From Candidatus Uhrbacteria bacterium (GTDB lineage Bacteria > Patescibacteriota > Patescibacteriia > UBA9934), in contig CALRGY010000013.1 of assembly GCA_943358395.1 (NCBI GenBank), positions 1-33,242 on the forward strand: DNA of 33,242 nt, given 5' to 3'. The position numbers and the translations under genes are program-made. The notes under the pieces are model-generated. The model did not search any database. It was not told the origin of the DNA and worked only from the letters and a program-made list of their open reading frames with translations. This document shows positions 3,181-30,073 of the stretch, one piece after another. The stretch's first letter is position 1. The number at the start of each line of letters is the position of its first letter.

Positions 3181-4032
3181 TCATCGAACAGAATTGTGTT
3201 CATCTCCAAGACGTGAGTGCAATTTTTCCCAATCGTTTGTGCTCAACTCTTGGGGGCGAACGGTTTTCTGGTGCCCGATCTCTTCAAGTGCACGATCGAT
3301 AGCTGCAAGACTAGCAACCTTTGCTTGCGCGAGAGTCTGGCGAAGCTGTTTGCGACGGTGGGTGAAACCGAGTTTGGCGAGTGCGATGATGCGTTCGCGA
3401 TCACCATCGCGGCTGCAGCCCCCTCCGACTCCCCCATAAATGGGGGAGGGTTCACGTTTCACGGTTAATCGGAGAACCATTGAATCTACTTTTGGGGGTG
3501 GAGTGAAGGCGCCGGGTTTGACGATGAAGAGGCGTTCGACGGCGCAATAGATCTGGGTGGCAACAGAAAGAACACTCATGTCCCCAGGCTGTGCAGTCAT
3601 ACGCTCCCCCACTTCTTTTTGCACCATAATCACCAATTGCCGCGGAGGATTCTTTGATGTGAGCACCTTTTCAAGGATGGCGTTCCCAGCGTTATATGGG
3701 AGATTGCTGACAAAAACCCATGATCGATCGTTGGTAATCGCATCATAATCCACCCGTGCCGCATCGGCGTGGATGAGTTGTGCGGAGGGAAATGTGGTGT
3801 GAAGTGAAGGGAGAAGATCGCGGTCGGCTTCGATGAGCACAAGTCCGCTCCTAATCTCGACCCCCTCCTTACTCCCCCTTTGCAGGGGGAGGGTACACAA
3901 CTGATTCGTCAGCGCCCCGGAACCGGGACCGACTTCAATGAGCAGCTCGTCGGGCAATACCTCAACAGCATCAACGATTTTTTTGATAATGTTGGCATCA
4001 TGAAGGAAGTGTTGACCGTAGGACTTTTTCAC
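3181..4032 (-). CDS. rsmA: 16S rRNA (adenine1518/1519-N6)-dimethyltransferase RsmA (KsgA)
   Basis: RsmA dimethylates two adenines in helix 45 of 16S rRNA with SAM during late small-subunit assembly. The N-terminal KKSYGQHFL is the family signature. EVGPGSGALT (residues 33-42) is SAM motif I, and NLPY (110-113) is the catalytic N-L-P-Y motif. The start is chosen at GTG 4032, where it shares GTGA with the stop of the upstream epimerase gene; the longer frame from GTG 4059 adds nine residues before the conserved KKS. Two in-frame insertions are unlike the family: residues 47-60 (LPLQRGSKEGVEI) between motif I and the acidic strand of motif II, and about residues 194-206 (SPIYGGVGGGCSRDG) at the start of the C-terminal domain. 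Both are encoded by GC-rich palindromes (repeat entries at 3856-3894 and 3416-3451). The core motifs are intact, so the enzyme is probably active. Confidence 0.95.
   Translation of the reverse strand: MKKSYGQHFLHDANIIKKIVDAVEVLPDELLIEVGPGSGALTNQLCTLPLQRGSKEGVEIRSGLVLIEADRDLLPSLHTTFPSAQLIHADAARVDYDAITNDRSWVFVSNLPYNAGNAILEKVLTSKNPPRQLVIMVQKEVGERMTAQPGDMSVLSVATQIYCAVERLFIVKPGAFTPPPKVDSMVLRLTVKREPSPIYGGVGGGCSRDGDRERIIALAKLGFTHRRKQLRQTLAQAKVASLAAIDRALEEIGHQKTVRPQELSTNDWEKLHSRLGDEHNSVR
3416..3451 (+). repeat. Family A palindromic element, copy inside rsmA (A1)
   Basis: It reads CAGCCCCCTCCGAC, then CTCCCCCATAAATGGGGGAG, a near-perfect palindrome. It is almost identical over about 33 bases to the intergenic copy at 4977-5013, which lies in the opposite orientation. 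Here it is translated in frame as part of RsmA and lengthens a loop before the C-terminal domain. Confidence 0.8.
3856..3894 (+). repeat. Family A palindromic element, second copy inside rsmA (A2)
   Basis: It reads CTCGACCCCCTCCTTA then CTCCCCCTTTGCAGGGGGAG and GGT. The two CTCCCCC/GGGGGAG arms and the CCCCCTC block match the other family A copies; the loop differs. It encodes TLPLQRGSKEGVEI in RsmA. The same TLPL...EGVEI frame is used by the copy in valS. Confidence 0.8.
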
Positions 4033-4961
4033 ATGCCGCGAACGTGCTCCCGATACCACGCAATCGTCTCACGAATTCCCTCTTCAAGATCTACCCCCGA
4101 TTTCCAAAACATTGCCTTTGCAATGGCGGACGTATCAAGGCTCATTCGCTTCACTGCATCGGTCACTTCTGGGCGAGGAGTCGCTGCACGATCGGTTCCA
4201 ATTTCTTTTGCGATCATCGTAAAAAGCTCTAGCGTCGATACTTCTTTTCCCGTCCCCACGTTATACACACCGCTCTGCGTGCCCGATTCTGCCGCAATCA
4301 ACGCCGCAACCACGTCGAGTACAAAAACGTAATCACGCGTGGTGGAACCATCACCATTGAGAAACGGAGATTCATTTTTCAAAAGCTTCTCGGTAAAGAT
4401 CGCAATGGCGCCAGATTCTTTATTCCCGTATTGCCGTGGGCCGTACACGTTTCCGAAACGTAAGGAAACGGTGTGCATGCCGTGCTGGGTGGTATAGGCA
4501 GAAAGATACGTTTCTGCAGCAAATTTTGAAATGCCATACGGCGTTTGTGGCTGGGGCCTCATCGATTCCATCATCGGAACCGACTCTTGCAACCCGTACA
4601 CTGCACAGCTTGATGCAAAGATGATCGACGTTGCCCCAGCACGTTTTGCTGATTCAAACACATTGATCGATCCAAGCTCATTATGTTCGGCATTCATCAT
4701 CGGGTCGAGGACGGATGCACGGTCGTCGATGTGAGCAGCAAGGTGAAAGACGCTTTGCGGAGCAATAGCAGCAATCCGATCCTCTAATTGACGATCGCGA
4801 ATATCACAAAGCACATACGTCGCAGCCTCATTCTTCCGATCAGCCAACGGCTCCACCCAATCAATAACCGTCACTGCATCCCCACGATGAATCAGCGCAT
4901 CCACAAGATGGGAACCAATAAACCCACACCCACCCGTCACAATTGTTTTTCGTTGTGTCAT
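4029..4961 (-). CDS. NAD-dependent epimerase/dehydratase (extended SDR, nucleotide-sugar type)
   Basis: An extended short-chain dehydrogenase of the UDP-glucose 4-epimerase class. TGGCGFIG (residues 9-16) is the NAD-binding glycine motif. SSCAVYG (117-123) supplies the catalytic Ser, and YGISK (142-146) is the Tyr-xxx-Lys pair. RFGNVYGPRQ and RDYVFVLDVV are typical of this subgroup, and 310 residues is the usual length. It is cytoplasmic and probably interconverts or dehydrates a nucleotide sugar for cell-surface glycans; the exact substrate cannot be read from sequence. It overlaps rsmA by GTGA at 4029-4032, so the two genes are translationally coupled. No Shine-Dalgarno sequence precedes the ATG. 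The gene ends in TGA, showing that UGA is a stop here. Confidence 0.9.
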   Translation of the reverse strand: MTQRKTIVTGGCGFIGSHLVDALIHRGDAVTVIDWVEPLADRKNEAATYVLCDIRDRQLEDRIAAIAPQSVFHLAAHIDDRASVLDPMMNAEHNELGSINVFESAKRAGATSIIFASSCAVYGLQESVPMMESMRPQPQTPYGISKFAAETYLSAYTTQHGMHTVSLRFGNVYGPRQYGNKESGAIAIFTEKLLKNESPFLNGDGSTTRDYVFVLDVVAALIAAESGTQSGVYNVGTGKEVSTLELFTMIAKEIGTDRAATPRPEVTDAVKRMSLDTSAIAKAMFWKSGVDLEEGIRETIAWYREHVRGM

Positions 4962-4976
4962 AGAAGTGATCTAGAG

Positions 4977-5013
4977 ACCTCTCCCCCATTTATGGGGGAG
5001 TCGGAGGGGGCTG
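4977..5013 (-). repeat. Family A palindromic element, intergenic copy (A3)
   Basis: On the plus strand it reads ACCT, CTCCCCCATTTATGGGGGAG, TCGGAGGGGGCTG, the reverse complement of the rsmA copy A1 with only a few differences. It fills nearly the whole gap between the epimerase start and the prfB stop. No T-run follows on either strand, so it is not a standard terminator. Confidence 0.8.
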
Positions 5014-5027
5014 AAGCCGAAATTAAG

Positions 5028-6140
5028 CTACCGATTCCGTTTCTCCGCATCATTCCGTAAAAACGCTTCAATGAACGGAAGTATCTTACCATCGAGTACG
5101 CTCTCTGTGTCTGATGTTTCCACATCGGTGCGGTGATCCTTCACCATTTTATACGGGTGCAACACATAACTCCTGATTTGGTTCCCCCAGGCAGCCGTTT
5201 TATGCTCGCCCTTAATATCCGAAAGCTTTTCCGCGCGCGCCGTCACCATTAACTGAAACAGTCGTGCTTTCAGCACATTGAGCGCCGTTTCCTTGTTTTG
5301 TAATTGGGAACGTTCATTTTGACAGCTCACCGCCATTCCGGTTGGAAGGTGCGTAACGCGCACTGCGCTATACGTAGTGTTCACGCTTTGCCCACCTTTG
5401 CCCGACGAAAGGAACGTGTCGATGCGCACGTCGTCCATGTCTAGCTCCACTGCCGCAGCATCCATGGCATCAAATTCTGGCAGTACCTCGATAAGGGCAA
5501 ACGTGGTGTGTCGCATTTTCTCCCCATCAAATGGCGAAATACGCACGAGGCGATGCACTCCAGCCTCCGAGCGAAACCATCCGTACGCATACCGGCCACG
5601 CACAGCGATGGTCACGCTCTTATACCCCGCTTCTTCGCCACGGGATTCATCTAAAATATCGCACGTAAAGCCCTTTTGCTCCGCAAACCGCATAACCATC
5701 CGCAGCAACATCGCCACCCAATCATTCGCATCTGTTCCCCCGGCGCCGGCATGAAACGAAATAATCGCATTGCGCTTATCGTATTCTCCAGAAAAAAGCA
5801 TCTGAAATTCCATTGCCGCGAATCGTTCCTCGCAATTAGCGACGAGACGGTCTGCTTCCTGTTTGTCTTCTGCCGATCCTTCCGATTCTGCCATGGTTAC
5901 AACATCCAACGTATCCGCAATCTCCTTCCCTATAGCATCCCACGCCCCAATCTCTTTCTTTAAATCCGCCAGCTCCTGCGACACCTTCCTTGCCCGCTCC
6001 TGATCCCCCCAAAACCCGGCATCACTCATTAATACCTCTAACTCCCCCACCCTTTCCCGAGACTCCCCAATCCCAAGCGCAAGCACCGCCAAGCCATGGC
6101 GATGCTGAAGATTAATAAGTTTGTCGGAAAGGAGGGACAT
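5028..6140 (-). CDS. prfB: Peptide chain release factor 2 (RF2)
   Basis: RF2 releases the finished protein at UGA and UAA stop codons. The tripeptide anticodon SPF is visible in VRISPFDGEK, which identifies RF2 rather than RF1. GKGGQSVNTTYSAVRVTH carries the catalytic GGQ (residues 249-251); the usual His after GGQ is Ser here. ATG at 6140 starts with MSLLSDKL; an in-frame start at 6188 would add 16 residues but would run into the groEL terminator hairpin. The coding frame is continuous, so the autoregulatory +1 frameshift found in many prfB genes is absent. RF2 plus TGA stops in neighbours imply a standard genetic code. The gene is downstream of the groEL terminator and no promoter was recognised. 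Confidence 0.95.
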   Translation of the reverse strand: MSLLSDKLINLQHRHGLAVLALGIGESRERVGELEVLMSDAGFWGDQERARKVSQELADLKKEIGAWDAIGKEIADTLDVVTMAESEGSAEDKQEADRLVANCEERFAAMEFQMLFSGEYDKRNAIISFHAGAGGTDANDWVAMLLRMVMRFAEQKGFTCDILDESRGEEAGYKSVTIAVRGRYAYGWFRSEAGVHRLVRISPFDGEKMRHTTFALIEVLPEFDAMDAAAVELDMDDVRIDTFLSSGKGGQSVNTTYSAVRVTHLPTGMAVSCQNERSQLQNKETALNVLKARLFQLMVTARAEKLSDIKGEHKTAAWGNQIRSYVLHPYKMVKDHRTDVETSDTESVLDGKILPFIEAFLRNDAEKRNR

Positions 6141-6166
6141 AGGAAAAATACTGCACAAATAGTAGC

Positions 6167-6204
6167 AAAAAAACGGATTCGATGCCATGAAGACATCGAA
6201 TCCG
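6167..6204 (-). terminator. Rho-independent terminator after groEL
   Basis: On the minus strand the stem CGGATTCGATG pairs perfectly with CATCGAATCCG across a 9-base loop and is followed directly by seven T residues. It lies just past the groEL stop, so it ends the groES-groEL transcript. Confidence 0.9.
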
Positions 6205-16582: not shown

Positions 16583-16606
16583 AGCCGAAGCTTTAGCGAA
16601 GGCTGG
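16581..16606. repeat. Family B hairpin element (B2) abutting tRNA-Val
   Basis: Arms CCAGCC and GGCTGG flank GAAGCTTTAGCGAA, whose reverse complement TTCGCTAAAGCTTC matches the B1 core with substitutions. On the minus strand the first arm begins with the CCA of tRNA-Val, so tRNA and element share three bases. Confidence 0.7.
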
Positions 16607-16680
16607 TGGACGCCGGGGGATTCGAACCCTCGACCCTCTCGGTGTAAACGAGATGCTCTAACCAGCTGAGCTAGGCGTCC
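16604..16680 (-). tRNA. tRNA-Val (anticodon UAC)
   Basis: A complete 77-base cloverleaf with CCA encoded. The anticodon loop TTTACAC gives TAC, reading GUA. The acceptor GGACGCC pairs with GGCGTCC, and the T-loop is TTCGAAT. It is first in the tRNA-Val/tRNA-Ala transcript, and its CCA end overlaps the B2 palindrome. Confidence 0.95.
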
Positions 16681-16746: not shown

Positions 16747-17421
16747 ATGTATCCTCGAATAATGAGTAAACCGAAGGGAAGAATTCGGATTGAGTGGTCA
16801 GAGAAGTTCGCGTATGCGATTGGTCTCATTGTTACCGATGGGAATCTTTCTCCCGACGGACGTCACATTAGTTTTTCTTCAAAAGATAAAGAATTGATCT
16901 ATCATTTTCTTCTTGCTCTTGAAATTCCAGATCAACGCATCAGAAAAAAGACGAGTGGATACACGGGAAAGACCGACGCATTTGTTATCCAATTCAGTGA
17001 CGTGCTTTTCTATCGGTTTCTCCTTGAGATCGGACTCATGCCAAATAAATCCAAGGTCATGAAGAGGATCATCGTCCCCGATGAATGCTTTTCACATTTT
17101 ATTCGTGGTCTATTTGACGGCGATGGAACTTCATTTTCCTATTGGGATCCTCGCTGGAAATCAAGTTTTATGTTCTATACCGCTTTTGCGTCCGCCAGTC
17201 ATGAGTTTCTTTATTGGCTACGTAACGAAATCTCTTTTCGATATGGGATAATTGGACATATTTCAACATCGCAGGGCGAACACACACGACAGTTACGATT
17301 TGCCAAAAAGTCATCTATCGCCCTTCAAGACGTTATGTATAAAAATGCCAATAATTTTTACCTGAAACGAAAATACTTGAAAATAACCTCGGCTATGTCT
17401 ATAATTCCACCGTTACAGTGA
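16747..17421 (+). CDS. Freestanding LAGLIDADG homing endonuclease
   Basis: 224 residues with two LAGLIDADG motifs: YAIGLIVTDGN (residues 23-33) and FIRGLFDGDG (118-127). Each supplies a helix of the dimer interface and an acidic metal ligand (D31 and D126 or nearby). Such enzymes cut a long DNA site and spread themselves by recombination, usually from within an intron or intein. Here the gene stands alone, between divergent tRNA-Val and the co-directional tRNA-Leu, and its stop at 17421 is only 5 bases before tRNA-Leu. No intron splice features are visible in that tRNA. ATG 16762 is an alternative start. Its target is unknown; a role as a WhiA-like regulator is possible but no HTH region was seen. 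Confidence 0.85.
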   Translation: MYPRIMSKPKGRIRIEWSEKFAYAIGLIVTDGNLSPDGRHISFSSKDKELIYHFLLALEIPDQRIRKKTSGYTGKTDAFVIQFSDVLFYRFLLEIGLMPNKSKVMKRIIVPDECFSHFIRGLFDGDGTSFSYWDPRWKSSFMFYTAFASASHEFLYWLRNEISFRYGIIGHISTSQGEHTRQLRFAKKSSIALQDVMYKNANNFYLKRKYLKITSAMSIIPPLQ

Positions 17422-17426
17422 AATGT

Positions 17427-17512
17427 GCGCGGATGGCGAAACGGTAGACGCGCCACTTTGAGGGGGTGGTAGCCGAAAGGCTGTGGAGGTTCGATTCCTC
17501 TTCCGCGCACCA
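17427..17512 (+). tRNA. tRNA-Leu (anticodon GAG)
   Basis: 86 bases with CCA encoded. Acceptor GCGCGGA pairs with TCCGCGC. The anticodon loop TTGAGGG gives GAG, reading CUC and CUU. The long variable arm (TAGCCGAAAGGCTGT) identifies a class II tRNA. It lies 5 bases after the homing endonuclease gene and before a terminator. Confidence 0.95.
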
Positions 17513-28803: not shown

Positions 28804-29007
28804 ATGCAAAAAACGCCATGGAAACTTCTTTTCACCCTTGGCGGCGTGCATTTCATTGCCGATGCCATTTCTGGATTCACTGTCACATCAACCGCGATTC
28901 ATTACTCATTTCTCAACATCGCCCTCATCATTCTTTCGTATAACGTCCTCACCTTACGCAGCCCTTACCCGCAGTTTCTTCAATTGCGTGAGTTCATCCA
29001 TACTTGA
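28804..29007 (+). pseudogene. Membrane protein gene cut short by the IS element
   Basis: The frame from ATG 28804 encodes a hydrophobic protein (MQKTPWKLLF...HYSFLNIALIILSYNVL). It enters the IS left inverted repeat at 28948, so native sequence covers only about 48 codons and the last 19 residues plus stop come from the IS (RSPYPQFLQLREFIHT). The original gene was presumably longer. It belongs to the three-gene membrane/surface cluster starting at 27881. Confidence 0.55.
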
Positions 29008-30073
29008 ACGAAGCGCGCTCACATACAGCTTCGCCTTCAGCGCAAAGTGATTGAGTCCGGTCTTGATCTTCATTTTCTCAAGTTTGACAAACGCAACCAT
29101 TGCAGCAAAGAAGTGGTTGATCTGTGTTCTCACAGTCTGCGTTGGAGACTTGGCGAGTCCAGCGTTTGACTTCAGTGATTTGTGATACTCCTCAATACGC
29201 CACCGTTTCTGGTAGCTTTTCGTGATGGTTTCCGCTTCACTCTTCGTATCCGATGCACAGAGGTAAAGAATCCCCTGACTACCGTCTTCGTTCGTGAAGA
29301 CTTGCTTGAGGAGAAGGACGGGAAACAGCACCCCTTCCAGGTAGGCTTCAATGGGAACATTTTCCTCAAATACGAGCGATGCGATATTCGTGAAGTGACC
29401 ACGATGTTTGTCCGTGAGTGATACCGCAATCTTTCGATTGCTCTTGAGTGGGATGATGAAATCCTTTTTGAGCGTTTCTTTGATAAACCGCATGTTTTCA
29501 CAGGAACTAAACCAGGAATCTGCGAGGACAAGAGAAAAGACGAGGTGCATGTCATGTACGCAGGAATGAAGGATTTCCCGCATGGTTTCATTCTTTGTCT
29601 TTTCGCTTCTCCGCACAGTCTTTCCCGTCTTTTCATCCACGACTTCTTTTGTCTTCTTTACGACGTCAAATGACACCGGAAAACTGACACCATTGTTGTG
29701 ATACAGAAAATTGAGAATGTTCACTCCTTTTACATGCCGACCGAGCGCATGGTCGTGATGCCAGGAAATGATGTCATTCTCGTCCGTATACAGCTTTTCT
29801 TCGATGGTGTCATCTACGACGATAACGCCATCCACGGATTCAATTTCACGCACGAGCGGTTTCACAATCTTCCAAAGATCTTTTGGTCCGAAATCTTCTT
29901 TCGACAGCATTCGCGTGAATGCGTCATGGCTCACCGCGCCATCCAGGGCTCTGGAAAGTCCCGTCGCGGTCGTTTGTGAAAATGAGGAGATGAGATAGTC
30001 GGTGTAGAGGTCGAGATGTTTTTCCATACAGCCTCAAGCATAGCAGGAAGAGTGAGGGACTGCGTAAGGTGAG
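28948..30073 (-). mobile_element. IS4-superfamily insertion sequence
   Basis: The ends carry inverted repeats: CTCACCTTACGCA at 28948-28960 and its complement TGCGTAAGGTGAG at 30061-30073, with further similarity inward (CCCTTAC against CCCTCAC). The element is about 1126 bases with one transposase gene on the minus strand, whose stop lies in the left repeat. No matching direct repeat flanks it. Confidence 0.85.
28954..30027 (-). CDS. IS4-like DDE transposase
   Basis: 357 residues. The DDE triad fits VIVVDDTIEE (D72 or D73), VLADSWFSS (D170) and the last Glu within YQKRWRIEEYHKSLK, which is the Y-x2-R-x3-E-x6-K signature of the IS4 group. The enzyme cuts and joins the IS ends. It appears intact. 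GAGG lies 4 bases before its ATG, one of the few Shine-Dalgarno-like motifs here, which fits recent arrival from another genome. Transcribed opposite to the truncated membrane gene. Confidence 0.92.
   Translation of the reverse strand: MEKHLDLYTDYLISSFSQTTATGLSRALDGAVSHDAFTRMLSKEDFGPKDLWKIVKPLVREIESVDGVIVVDDTIEEKLYTDENDIISWHHDHALGRHVKGVNILNFLYHNNGVSFPVSFDVVKKTKEVVDEKTGKTVRRSEKTKNETMREILHSCVHDMHLVFSLVLADSWFSSCENMRFIKETLKKDFIIPLKSNRKIAVSLTDKHRGHFTNIASLVFEENVPIEAYLEGVLFPVLLLKQVFTNEDGSQGILYLCASDTKSEAETITKSYQKRWRIEEYHKSLKSNAGLAKSPTQTVRTQINHFFAAMVAFVKLEKMKIKTGLNHFALKAKLYVSALRSSMDELTQLKKLRVRAA

Follow-up and report, generated by a model that had tools for sequence, protein, structure and literature searches.

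The window, the whole 33,242-nt stretch of Candidatus Uhrbacteria DNA that was analysed, carries three copies of a C/G-rich element in and near the rsmA gene:

3181-4059, minus strand: rsmA, a KsgA-type 16S rRNA dimethyladenosine transferase gene holding copies 1 and 2 (Pfam RrnaAD, 2.3e-39; RsmA matches in the PDB)
3419-3448, minus strand (G-rich strand): core of copy 1, with hairpin 3429-3448, linker TCG and mirror tail 3419-3425
3861-3891, minus strand (G-strand): core of copy 2, with hairpin 3872-3891, linker TAAG and mirror tail 3861-3867
4029-4961, minus strand: NAD-dependent epimerase/dehydratase gene, adjoining copy 3 (Pfam Epimerase, 7.3e-51)
4981-5010, plus strand (G-strand): core of copy 3, intergenic, with hairpin 4981-5000, linker TCG and mirror tail 5004-5010
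5028-6188, minus strand: prfB, encoding peptide chain release factor 2, adjoining copy 3 (Pfam PCRF and RF-1)

All three hairpins consist of the palindrome CTCCCCC-6-GGGGGAG, which had no match in 100 dinucleotide shuffles of the sequence. An earlier note on this DNA had claimed these three copies, and each was recovered. Copy 1 matches copy 3 in inverted orientation over 44 nt, with 93% complementarity (3410-3453 against 4976-5019). Copy 3 occupies the 66-nt gap between prfB and the epimerase gene with its G-strand on the plus strand, in agreement with the reverse orientation reported for it before. The order prfB-epimerase-rsmA was kept in four congeners, where the prfB-epimerase gap was shorter and held no element.

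Both copies in rsmA are translated in frame. Counted from the GTG at 4059, copy 1 yields the peptide EPSPIYGGVGGG at about residues 203-214 and copy 2 yields TLPLQRGSKEGV at about residues 55-67; a peptide near-identical to the latter was found in an HhH-GPD protein (L002). The in-frame translation described in the earlier note stands, with residue numbers that differ from ours and fit a later start at VKKSYGQ. Its statement that the SAM and NLPY motifs are spared was also borne out, as the inserts miss the conserved GQHFL, GxGxG and NLPY. In an AlphaFold2 model of RsmA (mean pLDDT 89.3), both inserts were low-confidence loops outside the conserved motifs, one between helix 48-53 and strand 72-76 and the other between strand 192-199 and helix 216-230. 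The low pLDDT fits flexible loops; alternatively, it could reflect how few aligned sequences have an insert at those positions.

By its RsmA, the source organism belongs with Candidatus Uhrbacteria. Alignment of RsmA with relatives revealed that the loops were empty in G001, G002 and G003 and that the residues there were not conserved; relatives keeping the same residues without the palindrome were not what was seen. In G004, loop 2 was occupied by a variant particular to that genome and loop 1 by a longer insert rich in C and G. The palindrome also turned up, in the opposite orientation, in loop 2 of a distant RsmA (L083; 47-51% identical). G002, G003 and G004 formed one group in a concatenated tree (support 93), so the RsmA history comprises either two gains or a single gain with several losses, both of which are possible.

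The element is abundant in the 0.91-Mb genome. The pattern CTCCCCCN{3,14}GGGGGAG matched 60 perfect palindromes, versus 1 for the reversed pattern used as control. Paired C-blocks numbered 69, a count for which the reversed control is void since this pattern equals its own reverse. The earlier note had looked for more than a handful of copies, and the genome has 60 to 69. The hairpin loop was 6 nt in most copies and 7 nt in some; ATAAAT (20), TTTGCA (13), TTGTAAA (7), TTGGCA (6) and TTCGTAA (4) were loop types among 57 copies, and they occurred with several different linkers. Across 380 genomes sampled from the phylum, 75 had at least one palindrome, with a patchy distribution and a maximum of 66 copies. 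Plasmid and phage collections gave partial, weak matches only, which were uninformative.

The hairpin is followed by a third block. On the G-strand, a linker of 3-4 nt leads to an exact mirror copy of the hairpin G-arm, and arm and tail types vary jointly (GGGGGAG with GAGGGGG, GGAGGGG with GGGGAGG, and GGGGGGA with AGGGGGG). The full 7/7 mirror tail was present in 25 of 27 hairpins of relatives, counted as distinct hairpins from a listing that holds each once per strand. The mirror rule was first spotted in the relatives' sequences and partly tested on those same loci; a cleaner test came from newly fetched loci of nine genomes (six outside the order), selected by hairpin alone with no regard to the tail, where 19 of 21 hairpins had it. 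Viral contigs contained 47 matching stretches, which say nothing on the mirror rule because the search pattern already required the mirror block.

Arm-tail matches were compared with the numbers obtained when tails were re-dealt among arms. Observed matches were 63 versus a mean of 36.5 in the genome's own loci and 24 versus a mean of 10.8 in relatives. In neither set did any of 2000 shuffles reach the observed number, a result that gives no clean probability since related copies are non-independent. With 7-nt arms, a linker of 3-4 nt and a tail on one side, the element has the three blocks of an intrastrand-triplex motif. Inverted pairs were found at about 16 distinct loci (19 scan rows, three pairs being counted twice), 14 of which had a spacer of 30-33 nt with the theme GATGAATCTCGATTGTGAAC. 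The pair scan looked for a hairpin with a near-perfect mirror tail downstream and is therefore no test of the mirror rule. The hairpin had been correctly described in the earlier note, which missed the pairs and the mirror tail that covaries with the arm.

Copies were frequent within conserved genes. Including the two in RsmA, conserved genes of this genome contain no fewer than 20 in-frame copies, the count that the earlier note had proposed to make. Most hosts could be named by Pfam: LepA, IleS (two sites), O-antigen ligase, MnmA, SMC, GreA, a class II aminoacyl-tRNA synthetase, DnaX, a glycosyltransferase, PheT, LigA, ribulose-phosphate epimerase, UvrC, GrpE, a RadA-like protein, an HhH-GPD glycosylase and FemAB. 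Two more host frames had no Pfam match and have homologues in congeners. Copies were chosen from long open frames by a codon score trained on the window genes; the cut-off was set after the ranked list was known, so that the figure of at least 20 is a provisional minimum rather than a full census. In further genomes the element lay within the matched domain in several scanned frames (PolyA_pol, AdoHcyase, IMPDH).

In 53 of 57 copies, four or more of the six frames were open. The in-frame copies used both strands and all three phases, which indicates that what the unrelated proteins have in common is DNA and not a peptide. The inserts are probably tolerated in protein loops, judging from alignments and one protein model; the earlier suggestion of tolerance in exposed loops is supported to the extent that the sites are variable loops.

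Occupancy of the sites differed among species. Many of the insert sites were empty in the four congeners or held another variant. Among recovered same-genus orthologues, MnmA, GreA, UvrC and FemX had an insert in this genome only. LigA carried one arm type in G000 and a different one in G002 and G004, and SMC carried the C5-type element in two genomes (G000, G004) and a CGTC-like palindrome in three (G001, G002, G003). The same bin contains another lepA allele (L209, G000 contig C26, 1-2500), which was without the element and 92% identical to L052 over 2.5 kb; a sister strain is its probable source. Exact insertion junctions and target duplications were unreadable at the sites compared, this LepA pair included, because the pair diverges within the loop. 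The between-species differences and the element-free LepA allele favour the earlier description of the element as mobile, but neither a transposition event nor an enzyme was found.

The CGTC-like palindrome, GTCATCCCCGCG-AGGCGGGGATC, is unrelated to the element, resembles CGTC-type REPs and lies in frame in congeners. It was seen at L186, L187 and L188 (the SMC loop), L242 (GrpE) and L244 (DnaX), encoding HPREGGDPD or VIPAQAGIH. In SMC it uses the same loop as the C5 element of G000 and G004.

These results suggest, with good though incomplete confidence, a dispersed non-coding repeat family of intrastrand-triplex architecture that has multiplied in the lineage and is tolerated in frame in loops. 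The G-strand unit comprises a C-arm of 7-8 nt, a short loop, a G-arm, a linker of 3-4 nt and a third block mirroring the G-arm. As single-stranded DNA it could fold into a hairpin, with the third block lying along it as a purine third strand; such folding may take place in the cell, and the triplex-type unit may be what moves. Multiplication has involved both single units and inverted pairs. Because four or more of six frames stay open in most copies and the encoded peptides are Pro/Gly-rich, in-frame insertions in surface loops could survive selection, which would mostly remove other genic insertions.

Two other readings of the inserts start from the proteins or from a function. The inserts are Pro/Gly-rich and in loops, as ordinary low-complexity loops produced by protein-level convergence would be, with incidental palindromes. 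However, both strands and all phases of the same DNA are read, the element also occurs outside genes, and the palindrome with its mirror tail exceeds chance; convergence is scarcely credible. Retention because of a function, for instance in RNA-level regulation or as nucleoid binding sites, would agree with a stem kept despite changes beside the loop and with the covariation of arm and tail. Many congener sites are nevertheless empty and placement is variable, and the triplex motifs of E. coli neither correlated with gene class nor acted as promoters or terminators (PMC4666352), so that we regard retained function as highly improbable. Tolerated insertion of a repeat remains our preferred reading.

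For the spread of the repeat family, we tentatively favour a single-stranded foldback unit that may be copied into new sites in the course of replication or repair, with no need for a resident Y1 transposase. A transposase acting in trans, lost or undetected, is nearly as likely, and transposase-free copying does not readily account for the conserved spacer of the inverted pairs. That spacer, mostly 30-33 nt at about 16 loci, would be expected of a REP/REPIN family whose mobile unit is the inverted pair, moved in trans by a RAYT (Y1, HUH) now lost or missing from the assembly. Each of the four congeners has one to three Y1 genes, and within the family Y1-bearing genomes are richer in copies (p=0.0008, own genome left out). 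This association is confounded, much of it being driven by one genus without Y1 and without copies, and it is absent in the order outside the family (p=0.57). Moreover, the own genome (97.6% complete, 60 copies) has no Y1 gene or remnant, and no Y1 was detectable in G087 (23 copies), G099 (29), G403 (38) or G429 (54), which are 92-100% complete; detection was by PF01797, which divergent enzymes may escape. The flanks of 20 RAYT loci from relatives, among them all seven in the genus, lacked the element. In view of the confounded association, its absence elsewhere and the unflanked RAYTs, we find mobilisation by a lost RAYT rather doubtful. A resident RAYT as mobiliser was unsupported by the family search, protein query, 20 RAYT flanks and copy-number association. 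More sweeping still would be a self-folding, transposase-free hairpin-triplex mobile DNA whose functional signature would be the mirror block, reshaping loops of essential proteins across Patescibacteria, which we consider improbable.

Four RAYT loci of G007 and G016 had unrelated palindromes of their own nearby; at L277, L280 and L282 these lay on one or both sides of the RAYT-like gene, as in classic REP/RAYT systems. The DDE transposase gene of the window (28954-30027) was rejected as mobiliser, as neither end resembles the element. Just past one end lies TGCGTAAGGTGAG, with its reverse complement at the other, a TIR-like arrangement unrelated to the C5 element.

The Uhrbacteria element behaves as the Rickettsia palindromic elements (RPEs) do and is built as the E. 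coli triplex repeats are. Triplex motifs are defined by a pyrimidine arm, a purine arm and a mirroring purine block, with a stem of 6-15 nt and loops of 1-6 nt (PMC4666352). PIT/TM_ECO of E. coli and the G/C-rich motifs of cyanobacteria share with the Uhrbacteria element the C-arm, loop, G-arm, linker of about 3 nt and mirror block; these motifs are likewise multi-copy and include some inverted pairs. TM_ECO has the layout CCCTCNCCC-N3-6-GGGNGAGGG-N3-GGGNGAGGG (CCCTCNCCCN3-6GGGNGAGGGN3GGGNGAGGG) and 23 copies in MG1655, intergenic without exception (PMC4666352). The Uhrbacteria element, in contrast to this intergenic GGGNGAGGG core, has another core, at least 20 intragenic copies and arm-tail types that switch between species, and accordingly falls outside both the TM_ECO consensus and its intergenic-only distribution. 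Oligonucleotides with the triplex-motif layout fold into stable triplexes in vitro, as shown for TM_ECO (CD, NMR), and loci of this kind display instability in E. coli; the E. coli work found no stable triplex in double-stranded DNA or in vivo (PMC4666352).

Like the RPEs, the Uhrbacteria element places palindromes in frame in unrelated conserved genes as well as between genes, and like the CGTC types it has no known dedicated transposase (PMC2229807, PMC3733652); no CGTC tag was seen on it. RPE-1-type elements measure 105-146 bp (PMC2229807), whereas the Uhrbacteria core measures 31-33 nt, has a mirror tail and resides in Patescibacteria, which sets it apart from the rickettsial family by size and host. 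REPINs and GTAG REPs are also small hairpins, often in inverted pairs with a spacer, with some intragenic in-frame cases on record (PMC3116915, PMC3733652, PMC6006769). The Uhrbacteria element shares the inverted pairs of REPIN/RAYT systems but no cognate RAYT flanked by the repeat was found in this genome or among the 20 loci of relatives, and no GTAG-type tetranucleotide was apparent at the hairpin foot of the listed copies.

The element unites two separately known phenomena, triplex-type repeats that are intergenic and associated with unstable genomes, and palindromes that genes carry as translated sequence, as in Rickettsia. Its setting is the streamlined Patescibacteria, in which extra DNA in essential genes is unexpected; at the title and abstract level, with most subscription journals outside coverage, no relevant literature on such repeats in this group was found. 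Since congeners differ at the same loops, they offer natural with/without comparisons of how proteins tolerate insertions. The Uhrbacteria system also gives a route to test the role of the mirror block in spread, and the architecture recurs in nine more genomes, of which six lie outside the order.

Some copies departed from the basic form. In those at L012, L013, L065 and L071 of the same genome, the loop is long and includes an additional segment of about 35 nt (CCCACTTCGCTCTTCGAGCTTCGAGGGACAGG). At L046 and L013, tandem arrays of the half-unit CCCCCTCCGACTCCCCG precede a full copy, in L046 in frame within an aminoacyl-tRNA synthetase. Elsewhere in the window, a LAGLIDADG-type ORF (16747-17421) is flanked by tRNA-Val (16604-16680) and tRNA-Leu (17427-17512).
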